This document shows, piece by piece, positions 58,055-59,855 of a stretch of DNA of 64,000 bases. A program made the translations under genes and the position numbers. The notes beneath the pieces were generated by a model. That model was not told where the DNA came from. It saw only the letters and a list, made by a program, of their open reading frames with translations, and did not search any database. The DNA comes from [Ruminococcus] lactaris ATCC 29176 (lineage in GTDB: Bacteria > Bacillota > Clostridia > Lachnospirales > Lachnospiraceae): positions 186,001-250,000 of the forward strand of contig NZ_CP102292.1 of the NCBI RefSeq assembly GCF_025152405.1. Reading direction: 5' to 3'. Position 1 is the stretch's first letter, and each line of letters opens with the position of its first letter.

Positions 58055-58082
58055 TTGACATTATCCGAAAAAATGATAAAAT
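58055..58082 (+). promoter_or_regulatory. Promoter of the polyamine operon
   Basis: TTGACA (58055-58060) and TGATAAAAT with -10 TAAAAT (58077-58082), spacer 16 bp with an extended TG. Transcription should start near 58088-58092, immediately before the structured leader. Confidence 0.8.
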
Positions 58083-58087
58083 TAAAA

Positions 58088-58363
58088 CGACGCAAAGAGT
58101 TATCTAGCGAATACAGGACCACTTCTTTTGAAGTCGAGGCCATACGGACAGCCGGGTCCGCTGCCGATGGGTATAAGATAGGATACCCTCATTGATTGAG
58201 TTAAAAGCTCAAATTTTATAAGTTGGTTACTTCATAACCGAAATGCATGATAGTGCAGACTTGTGAAACGGTCAATTAAGCGTAGTAAAAGTATTGATGC
58301 TGTATAAGAGATAACGATTGAAGATTTCAAAGCAAGCTGTGTGTTTACAGCTTGCTTTTTTTT
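58088..58363 (+). ncRNA. Structured leader RNA with attenuator before the polyamine operon (candidate riboswitch)
   Basis: An outer pairing GTTATCT (58099-58105) with AGATAAC (58309-58315) encloses several hairpins. ACTTC-TTTT-GAAGT lies at 58121-58134. A long arm CCAT-CGG-CAGC with GCTG-CCG-ATGG lies at 58140-58170, with single bulged A residues. GGGTAT/ATACCC (58169-58188), TTGAG/CTCAA (58196-58212) and GGTTA/TAACC (58225-58239) follow. The leader ends in an intrinsic terminator just before the first gene. CAGACTTG (58255-58262) could pair with the terminator's 5' half as an antiterminator (weak). I cannot match it to a riboswitch class I know. Confidence 0.65.
58330..58363 (+). terminator. 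Intrinsic terminator (attenuator) directly before the first polyamine gene
   Basis: An 11-bp perfect stem AAGCAAGCTGT (58330-58340) / ACAGCTTGCTT (58347-58357) with a 6-nt loop is followed by T to 58363. The ribosome binding site GAGG starts at 58364. A terminator here only makes sense if readthrough is controlled. Confidence 0.9.
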
Positions 58364-58373
58364 GAGGTGTAAA

Positions 58374-59855
58374 ATGAGAGAAGAACACGAATTGAATCAA
58401 AATAAGGCACCGATCTACGAGGCACTGCAGAAATTCCGACAGATGCGGGTTGTGCCTTTTGATGTGCCTGGACATAAACGGGGCCGGGGAAATCCGGAGC
58501 TGACAGAATTCTTAGGGGAGCGTTGCATCAGCATTGACGTGAACAGTATGAAACCGCTGGATAATCTGTGCCATCCGATTTCTGTCATCCGCGAGGCGGA
58601 AGAACTGGCGGCAGATGCTTTTGGTGCAGCACACGCATTTCTTATGGTCGGAGGTACCACAAGCTCCGTGCAGACGATGGTGCTTTCGGTCTGTAAGAGA
58701 GGAGATAAGATCATTCTTCCGAGAAATGTACATCGCAGTGTGATCAATGCGCTTGTACTCTGCGGTGCGATTCCGGTGTATGTGAATCCGGAAGTGAACC
58801 ACCATCTGGGCATTTCCCTGGGGATGAAGAGAGAACAGGTGGCAAAAGCGATAGCAGAACACCCGGATGCAGTTGCTGTATTGGTGAATAACCCTACATA
58901 TTATGGAATCTGCAGTGATCTGAAAGCAATTGTAAAAATGGCTCACGATGCGGGCATGTACTGTCTGGCTGATGAGGCACACGGAACCCATTTCTATTTT
59001 GGGGAGGACATGCCGGTGTCAGCGATGGAAGCGGGAGCGGATATGGCATCGGTTTCCATGCATAAGAGCGGTGGAAGTCTGACACAGTCTAGTTTATTAC
59101 TGGTGGGTCCGAATATTCAGGAAGGTCATGTGCGGAAAATCATCAATCTGACGCAGACGACTTCCGGCAGTTATCTTCTGATGTCCAGTCTGGATATCAG
59201 CCGCCGCAATCTTGCATTGCGTGGAAGGAAAGTGTTCCGTCAGGTGTCTTCCATGGCGGCGTATGCACGGGAAGAAATCAATGCGGTAGGCGGCTATTAT
59301 GCATTTGGATCGGAACTGATCAATGGAGATTCCGTGTTTGATTTTGACCCGACAAAGCTTAGTGTCCATACACGGGATATCGGGCTTGCGGGCATTGAGG
59401 TGTATGATCTTCTTCGGGATGAGTATGATATTCAGATTGAGTTTGGGGATATCGGAAATATCCTTGCATATCTCTCCATCGGAGACAGACCACAGGAACT
59501 GGAACGACTGGTGAGTGCACTGGCTGAAATACGCAGAAGATATCAGACAGACAGCAGCGGTCTGATGAATCAGGAGTATATTGATCCCGAGGTTGTGATG
59601 AGTCCGCAGGAAGCGTTCTATGCGGAAACAATCAGTGTTCCGATTGGCAGCAGTGCAGGTTGTATCTGCAGCGAATTTGTAATGTGTTATCCGCCTGGAA
59701 TCCCGATCCTTGCACCGGGAGAGAAAATTACAGAGGATATTCTGGAATATATCAAGTATGCAAAAGAAAAAGGATGCTCCATGACAGGACCGGAGGATCC
59801 GGAGATTGAATATATCAATATTTTAAAGGAGGACGATCATGGAACTTTGGTTTAG
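58374..59855 (+). CDS. speA: Arginine decarboxylase (Orn/Lys/Arg decarboxylase family)
   Basis: 493 residues from ATG 58374 (GAGG at 58364-58367). A fold-I PLP enzyme of the Bacillus SpeA type: FDVPGHKRGRGNPELTEFLG at the start, GGTTSSVQTM phosphate site, DEAHGTHFYFG, and the PLP lysine in SMHKSGGSLTQSS. The C-terminal domain has PIGSSAGCICSEFVMCYPPGIPILAPGE. Family members use lysine, ornithine or arginine. The agmatinase gene two positions downstream makes arginine to agmatine the likely reaction. Cytoplasmic. It overlaps speE by 17 bp. Confidence 0.92.
   Translation: MREEHELNQNKAPIYEALQKFRQMRVVPFDVPGHKRGRGNPELTEFLGERCISIDVNSMKPLDNLCHPISVIREAEELAADAFGAAHAFLMVGGTTSSVQTMVLSVCKRGDKIILPRNVHRSVINALVLCGAIPVYVNPEVNHHLGISLGMKREQVAKAIAEHPDAVAVLVNNPTYYGICSDLKAIVKMAHDAGMYCLADEAHGTHFYFGEDMPVSAMEAGADMASVSMHKSGGSLTQSSLLLVGPNIQEGHVRKIINLTQTTSGSYLLMSSLDISRRNLALRGRKVFRQVSSMAAYAREEINAVGGYYAFGSELINGDSVFDFDPTKLSVHTRDIGLAGIEVYDLLRDEYDIQIEFGDIGNILAYLSIGDRPQELERLVSALAEIRRRYQTDSSGLMNQEYIDPEVVMSPQEAFYAETISVPIGSSAGCICSEFVMCYPPGIPILAPGEKITEDILEYIKYAKEKGCSMTGPEDPEIEYINILKEDDHGTLV

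Follow-up and report, generated by a model that had tools for sequence, protein, structure and literature searches.

The leader of the polyamine operon in [Ruminococcus] lactaris ATCC 29176 is a member of a listed RNA family, RF02440 (SpF59_sRNA, or ldcC RNA), that apparently lacks an assigned ligand, as far as we have seen. From comparison of its relatives, we propose that it acts in cis as a transcription OFF switch and that it is most likely a polyamine riboswitch, with spermidine as our best guess for the ligand. We give this reading a probability of roughly 60%. The finding is real and partly known: the family was already in Rfam without a ligand, and what our sequence comparison would add is the extent of the RNA, its modular build, its gene set, and a switch mechanism. 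All coordinates refer to the window, the whole 64,000-nucleotide stretch of DNA that was analysed, unless a locus is named.

The leader upstream of the polyamine operon

A near-consensus promoter precedes the operon, as the preliminary description of this DNA had claimed (TTGACA at 58055-58060, a 16-nt spacer, and TAAAAT at 58077-58082; 11 of 12 consensus matches). The promoter scan is weak by itself, because three such sites were observed in the region and 1.8 are expected by shuffling. Downstream lies the structured leader that had been described, ~220 nt long, and then a terminator and speA-speE-speB-CASDH-nspC. See Table 1 for the position of each part. The enclosing 7-bp helix was also found where it had been placed (GUUAUCU at 58099-58105 with AGAUAAC at 58309-58315), and it is present in the predicted fold. 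The attenuator hairpin exists as a terminator at 58329-58358 with a T-run to 58363, though it has 13 pairs and not the 11 first counted; one terminator was observed in the region against 0.4 expected.

The leader from 58095 to 58318 folds at -61.6 kcal/mol (z -3.06), and 0 of 200 shuffles were equally good. Helices P0b, P2, P3, P5, P6, P7, and P8 are contained in its minimum-energy fold, while P1, P4, and P0a are absent from it. In place of the missing helices this fold pairs GACC (58117-58120) with GGUC (58270-58273), which is a point against our structure. An 11-bp bulged arm had been proposed at 58140-58170, and the minimum-energy fold does draw an interrupted arm of 8 bp there (58138-58149 with 58156-58165), but covariation in relatives favours P1, P2, and the GGC/GCC hairpin. 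Our whole-leader covariance model R1, whose alignment includes the window, scores the leader at 181.7 bits.

Table 1. Features of the leader and the operon in the window
Feature	Position	Strand	Basis
Sigma-70-type promoter, TTGACA-16-TAAAAT	58055-58082	+	promoter scan, sequence
P0b 5' strand GUUAUCU, closing helix, partner 58309-58315	58099-58105	+	predicted fold, swap test
P0a 5' strand AGCGAAUAC, partners 58291-58295 and 58298-58301, two bulged bases	58106-58114	+	duplex prediction, swap test
Module A (RF02440 domain), 54 model positions	58116-58167	+	Rfam match, alignment
P1, within module A	58116-58120/58155-58159	+	alignment
P2, within module A	58121-58125/58130-58134	+	alignment
GGC/GCC hairpin, within module A	58138-58140/58151-58153	+	alignment
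Invariant CGG/CCG, possible pseudoknot, within module A	58145-58147/58164-58166	+	alignment
P3 hairpin, GGGUAU/AUACCC	58169-58188	+	alignment, predicted fold
P4 (58191-58195/58272-58276), encloses P5 (58196-58200/58208-58212) and P6	58191-58276	+	alignment
P6 (58218-58223/58259-58264), encloses P7 and P8	58218-58264	+	alignment, predicted fold
P7	58225-58229/58235-58239	+	alignment, predicted fold
P8	58244-58247/58254-58257	+	alignment, predicted fold
Putative antiterminator 5' strand GCAG-A-CUUGU, common to P8 and P6 3' strands, partner 58332-58340	58255-58264	+	
Minimal core region, P9 helix altered	58256-58319	+	model R3, 52.5 bits, weak for the family
Intrinsic terminator, 13 bp and T-run, 5' arm with GCAAGCUGU	58329-58363	+	
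Shine-Dalgarno GAGGTG	58364-58369	+	sequence
speA/ldcC-type Orn/Lys/Arg decarboxylase, 493 aa, ATG 58374	58374-59855	+	NCBIfam far below cut-off on substrate
speE, polyamine aminopropyltransferase	59839-60690	+	NCBIfam, above cut-off
speB, agmatinase family	60694-61548	+	NCBIfam, above cut-off
CASDH, carboxy(nor)spermidine synthase/dehydrogenase, LYS1-like	61643-62902	+	406 bits, below curated cut-off 800
nspC, carboxy(nor)spermidine decarboxylase, runs past window end	62902-64000	+	380 bits on cut protein, cut-off 409

The RNA family and what was already known

The preliminary description took the leader to be an unassigned riboswitch and named a strong match to a known Rfam family as the outcome that would remove its novelty. 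The covariance-model search gave such a match, so "unassigned" no longer holds: RF02440 scores 68.6 bits against a cut-off of 37.2 at 58116-58167, and the match covers model positions 1-54 of 54. Membership is supported both by this score above the curated cut-off and by the position before a decarboxylase/polyamine operon. No Rfam family besides RF02440 matches the leader at gathering. However, Rfam types the entry as "Gene; sRNA" and gives no ligand, and therefore we regard the novelty as reduced rather than removed. The entry and the window RNA also differ in extent and type. The 54-nt Rfam model is module A alone, whereas the conserved RNA here is ~220 nt and is a cis leader; similarity among leaders runs ~150 nt past module A, and the start of the outer helix lies on its upstream side.

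The ldcC motif was reportedly described in a survey that presented 224 candidate RNAs in 2017. The papers found in our literature search do not name the ldcC motif, ldcC RNA, or RF02440. In the portions of the source available to us, F59 is a Streptococcus pneumoniae RNA located between SP0915 and SP0916, before SP0916 (PMC3395615). Similarly, the available part of an array study describes SN20 as a 318-nt pneumococcal transcript before SP0916 with its own promoter and terminator (PMC2887815).

Collection and selection of relatives

Genomes of named species were scanned with a pattern for the Rfam domain's core, which gave at least 118 loci, and 18 loci from the survey of 398 phylum genomes brought the set to 136 among the matches listed. 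A crude word filter passed 115 of the 136. One of these (L098) was later judged false, leaving 114. Four filter rejects are true copies that are cut or divergent (L019, L084, L086, and L092), while L068 and L024 are weak partial matches. For alignment A1 we selected 96 sequences whose 3' end could be recognised, leaving out 14 in which it could not; the 96 became 74 after removal of near-identical sequences and 68 after a length cut; 10 odd sequences were then removed by hand to give 58 aligned rows. Alignments A2 and A3 used 59 of 65 and 55 of 62 sequences, respectively. The swap and word tests of the terminator were performed on 103 of the 114 loci, leaving out 8 without a terminator and 3 without a recognisable P6 strand. 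A hold-out set of 50 loci remained after removal of 6 already in the set; the 50 are not mutually independent, 29 of them coming from the window's genus, and in at least L172 the called terminator resembles coding sequence.

Conserved structure and covariation

RNAalifold recovered almost nothing from our first, badly gapped alignment of 111 rows. The helices were then defined by hand, so that the alignment was already known when the structure was chosen. The covariation check on homologous leaders that had been suggested came out in favour of the structure, as 22 of the 49 proposed pairs show two-sided changes against a shuffled mean of 13.8. Alignment A1 has 204 two-sided cells against 65.1 when shuffled, and 90.5% of the cells in the 49 pairs are standard, against 33-44% when the pairs are slid. 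The covariation score is 0.230, compared with 0.116 shuffled and at most 0.094 slid. Most of the covariation sits in P1 (its outer pair), P2, and P3; in 27 of the 58 rows, both partners of the outermost P1 pair differ. P4 and P6 gain little from covariation because both hardly vary in A1, where they are almost invariant. The comparison thus supports a set of helices forming the conserved, covarying, aptamer-like structure that is one mark of a riboswitch.

Relatives carry a differently spelled closing helix at the same place, such as GAGUCU/AGACUC. P0b is 59.4% paired in fixed alignment columns because its register shifts between clades, and we therefore used a swap test. Native 5' and 3' strands of P0 pair at -16.2 kcal/mol and swapped strands at -13.2, with 0 of 10000 permutations equally good; like our other swap tests, this one ignores the independence of changes, and the same changes recur in related sequences. 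A further helix, P9 (AGAGU/ACUCU), is paired at 96.5% with hardly any variation, and one of its strands is also the one that P0b needs. It may be either a pseudoknot or an alternative to P0b.

Two other features of the alignment were observed. Module A is nearly invariant at 58138-58166 (GGCCAUACGGACAGCCGGGUC...GCCG), although it is accessory and missing from several lineages (see below); this stretch is perhaps a second sensing site. The P5-P8 region differs in two potA leaders, L117 (3365-3689) and L129 (3756-3973), which keep module A, the P4 strands, and the terminator.

Expression platform and proposed mechanism

Of 114 leaders among the matches listed, 106 show a terminator-like hairpin ahead of the gene. 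The rule used found none in the other 8, of which 3 lie on stretches with little sequence beyond the core, or in 15 of the 50 hold-outs. The 5' arm of the terminator can base-pair with the P8 and P6 3' strands, often as GCACAUCAACUUGU with CAAGUGAUGUGC-like arms. Across 103 loci, arms pair with their own P8/P6 strands at -11.8 kcal/mol and with swapped strands at -9.75, and 0 of 20000 permutations were equally good. Other terminators at these 103 loci average -6.7. A CAAG/AAGT-like word occurs in 81 of 103 terminator arms, compared with 82 of 532 control arms. When a 21-nt segment was slid along the leader, only the P8/P6 3' strand responded (z -9.3); the 13 other positions lay between -1.6 and +1.7. 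The 35 testable hold-outs of 50 behave in the same manner (native -11.15, swapped -9.18; 0 of 20000 permutations), as do the 20 class members among the hold-outs (-11.8 and -8.6). By comparison, then, the platform is mutually exclusive with helices of the putative aptamer, a second mark of a riboswitch, and the terminator's 5' arm co-varies with the strand that it would take up in the antiterminator.

Since one strand is common to P6/P8 and the antiterminator, a ligand that stabilises P6 and P8 would free the terminator, which would make an OFF switch. We infer this direction from the anatomy of the shared strand together with end-product logic. RNA transcribed from about 58089 would fold into a domain closed by P0. 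At high polyamine, P6 and P8 would remain formed, the terminator at 58329-58358 could form freely, and transcription would stop before speA. At low polyamine, the P8/P6 3' strands (58255-58264) would pair with 58332-58340 as an antiterminator, and the operon would be transcribed. In minimal copies of the RNA, which lack P6 and P8, the antiterminator strand must be held otherwise.

Downstream genes and the candidate ligand

We identified the first gene at each locus by comparison with eight reference proteins. The first recognisable gene is polyamine-related in 109 of 109 readable loci (114 examined, among the matches listed): speD in 36, speA in 30, potA in 25, and CASDH in 18. The remaining five stretches are not readable, ending 139-499 nt after the core. 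The CASDH contexts comprise 9 CASDH-nspC loci and 9 whose stretch ends after CASDH. PotA and PotB were named by NCBIfam at one locus, where PotA scored above and PotB below the cut-off, and elsewhere by blastp to that locus. Short unrelated ORFs may lie between leader and gene, and one in L113 is PII-like by eye. A polyamine context was also found in 49 of 50 hold-outs (speA 32, potA 11, speD 6) but not in L196. All 25 phylum genomes with the core have polyamine contexts, including 7 of 7 loci without RF02440.

The gene pairs speD-speE and CASDH-nspC represent two different routes to spermidine, speA and speB feed spermidine, and potABCD imports it. Among the contexts speD, speA, potA, and CASDH, the only product or import common to all is spermidine (or a higher polyamine). 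Because it is common to every gene context, we favour spermidine, or a polyamine derived from it, as the ligand that the RNA would bind directly. Spermine and thermospermine are further possible candidates, and bacterial routes to spermine exist according to the part of the source available (PMC11999265). The ligand-controlled transcription switch for polyamines proposed in the preliminary description is well supported by comparison of sequences, with the probable identity of the ligand suggested by the genes downstream. Two of the ligands suggested there, arginine and agmatine, now appear unlikely because the same RNA also precedes speD, CASDH-nspC, and potA.

Modular build and distribution

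In searches with stricter filters, RF02440 matched 18 of 398 phylum genomes and R2, our model of the 3' module, matched 25, including all 18 with RF02440 and 7 without a match to it. R3, a 64-position model of the core, found exactly the same 25 genomes. The whole-leader model R1 matched 27 of 196 class genomes. Within the window's genus, R1 matched 41 of 58 genomes and RF02440 only 3, so that 38 of the 41 RNA-carrying genomes lack a match to RF02440. Twenty-seven other genus loci read by eye (L174-L200) pass from P0 directly to P3 without the Rfam domain. Elsewhere in the class, the domain is lost or decayed in L150, L157, L159, L160, and L163. Two of the seven copies without RF02440, L221 and L222, are minimal: the P0 5' strand GGCAAAUAUUUUUGCG is followed by a stretch near ACUUGUGAAACGGUCAAUAAGAGUAGUAAAAGUAAAAUAUUUGCUAUAUAGACUCU, and P3-P8 are gone. 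Both still precede speD-speA.

As the core is present in all 25 genomes and RF02440 in only 18, the RF02440 domain is, on sequence comparison, accessory, and the constant core lies outside Rfam. A copy at 65.6 bits was also found before a speD-like start in L092, a record titled uncultured spirochaete. In the small order of G099, 1 of 10 genomes has both RF02440 and the core.

Alternative explanations

The same RNA and attenuator could respond to a by-product of the pathway, or to an amine that is related or serves as a precursor (putrescine, agmatine, cadaverine, arginine, lysine, or carboxyspermidine), which we consider unlikely. Many of the operons do contain speA and speB, the Rfam name ldcC points to lysine decarboxylase, and the accessible part of one study reports the pneumococcal relative SP_0916 to be an arginine decarboxylase (PMC7531197). 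However, CASDH-nspC (9 loci and 9 more) and potA (25 loci) have no role for arginine, lysine, or agmatine; CASDH-nspC and potABCD neither make nor use arginine or lysine. Putrescine is consumed and not produced by speD-speE and CASDH-nspC, which speaks against it as the ligand. An expression platform of identical appearance would also be expected if a protein or another factor read the attenuator. We think this quite unlikely, as a near-invariant core on a large structured scaffold, found across classes and in the spirochaete-titled record, is typical of an aptamer. On the other side, polyamines bind RNA unspecifically, which counts against the polyamine riboswitch that we favour.

RF02440 is typed "Gene; sRNA", and F59 and SN20 were discovered as sRNAs, as far as the available parts of those papers show (PMC3395615, PMC2887815). 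A leader terminated before its gene would appear as an sRNA, and a trans-acting role is very improbable given that polyamine genes follow on the same strand (109 of 109 readable loci among the matches listed, 49 of 50 hold-outs, and 7 of 7 phylum loci without RF02440) and that 106 of 114 leaders among the matches listed carry a terminator ahead of the gene. An amino-acid-derived pathway and the attenuator anatomy would suit a leader peptide or a T-box, but either is scarcely credible here. Frames are open over 195 nt in just 1, 2, and 4 of 111 loci for the three frames, and no T-box model of Rfam matches the leader. By eye, an ORF that begins at ATG 58073 stays open across the window leader, but the likely transcription start lies downstream of this ATG.

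The window copy and its operon

The window's putative antiterminator (58255-58258 and 58260-58264 with 58332-58340) pairs at -10.1, weaker than the mean. At equilibrium, the terminated fold has -82.5 kcal/mol against -64.6 with the antiterminator forced, a gap of ~18 kcal/mol. Therefore, read-through must be kinetic, which we count against a simple reading of the switch. Model R3 gives the window copy 52.5 bits, whereas 21 of 25 phylum genomes reach at least 68.9. The P9 partner strand ACUCU is replaced in the window, and a shifted P9 is possible by eye (58278-58283 with 58314-58319, 5 of 6 pairs). Because its core is divergent, the function proposed for the window copy is less certain than that of the family itself.

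A search of genome G000 with E. coli-type SpeD, run without a positive control, gave no match, and neither did PF02675 (SpeD), which matched 8 of 14 control genomes. CASDH and nspC would be the spermidine route in this genome. The operon contains speE although no SpeD was found there. The window CASDH is 84% identical to that of genus member G586, 69-73% identical to eight other matching genus members, and 90-91% identical to loci from other records (L042 and L080). An IS3-like transposase pair lies upstream of the operon (53269-54424), and an integrase-like gene and an IS110-like transposase lie downstream (L249, 1082-4146), all by eye. Together with the presence of RF02440 in only 3 of 58 genus genomes, these identities and flanking genes suggest that the polyamine operon may have been gained horizontally. 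Also upstream of the operon is a small protein (56183-56548) ending in a PNDPCPCGSGKKYKKCCG motif, which we take to be SEC-C-like. Elsewhere in the window, the minus strand carries a match to Rfam pemK RNA (RF02913) at 19297-19360, with 36.6 bits against a cut-off of 34.8.

Comparison with known switches and significance

One of the closest known systems is the spermidine riboswitch that is a variant of SAM-I. According to the accessible part of its report, it occurs with ldcC, speE, and speB and is a terminator/antiterminator OFF switch in which spermidine, spermine, and norspermidine raise termination (PMC10853860). On that partial account, the window RNA resembles it in gene company and in the terminator/antiterminator type of switch, but differs in sequence and fold, and its family also precedes speD, CASDH-nspC, and potA. 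No SAM family matches the window at gathering, and a search of 57900-58450 up to E 10 gave 12 matches, none of them to a SAM family. The SAM-I fold and core were not found, and membership in that class was rejected. By analogy, the window RNA would work like the SAM-I-variant riboswitch but outside its class. Another close system is SN20, which, as far as the source could be consulted, is expressed with a promoter and terminator before SP0916; its authors proposed an FMN switch from a shared motif (PMC2887815), but no FMN match was found in the window.

Our literature search, by titles and the starts of abstracts, found no other polyamine-riboswitch class. In the available portion of their paper, the authors of the SAM-I-variant study call earlier proof of polyamine riboswitches unsatisfying and expect more classes (PMC10853860). 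The sequences make the window RNA family a strong candidate to be the second class of polyamine riboswitch. We give even odds to a fuller version of this proposal: a second natural class for spermidine (or another polyamine), distinct from SAM-I, spread across the phylum and present in the spirochaete-titled record, built on a P0a/P9 core with GCAAAUAUU/AAUAUUUGC around ACUUGUGAAACGGUCAAUAAGAGUAGUAAAAGUA, and with the Rfam domain as an add-on. The candidate ligand-binding part of such a class is the GCAAAUAUU/AAUAUUUGC pair crossed by AGAGU/ACUCU, pseudoknot-like and outside Rfam. The Rfam domain, absent or decayed in several lineages, could then adjust the switch or respond to a further signal.

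With RF02440 absent from 38 of the 41 RNA-carrying genomes of the genus, the Rfam family appears to rest on a dispensable part of the RNA, whereas a minimal core of ~64 nt can be defined. If the riboswitch reading is true, ligand protections are expected at ACUUGUGAAACGG and AGUAAAAGUA in full-length RNAs, in those without module A, and in minimal ones. Furthermore, the proposed mechanism predicts which mutations would break and restore control. The candidate stands before genes for both the synthesis and the import of polyamines.
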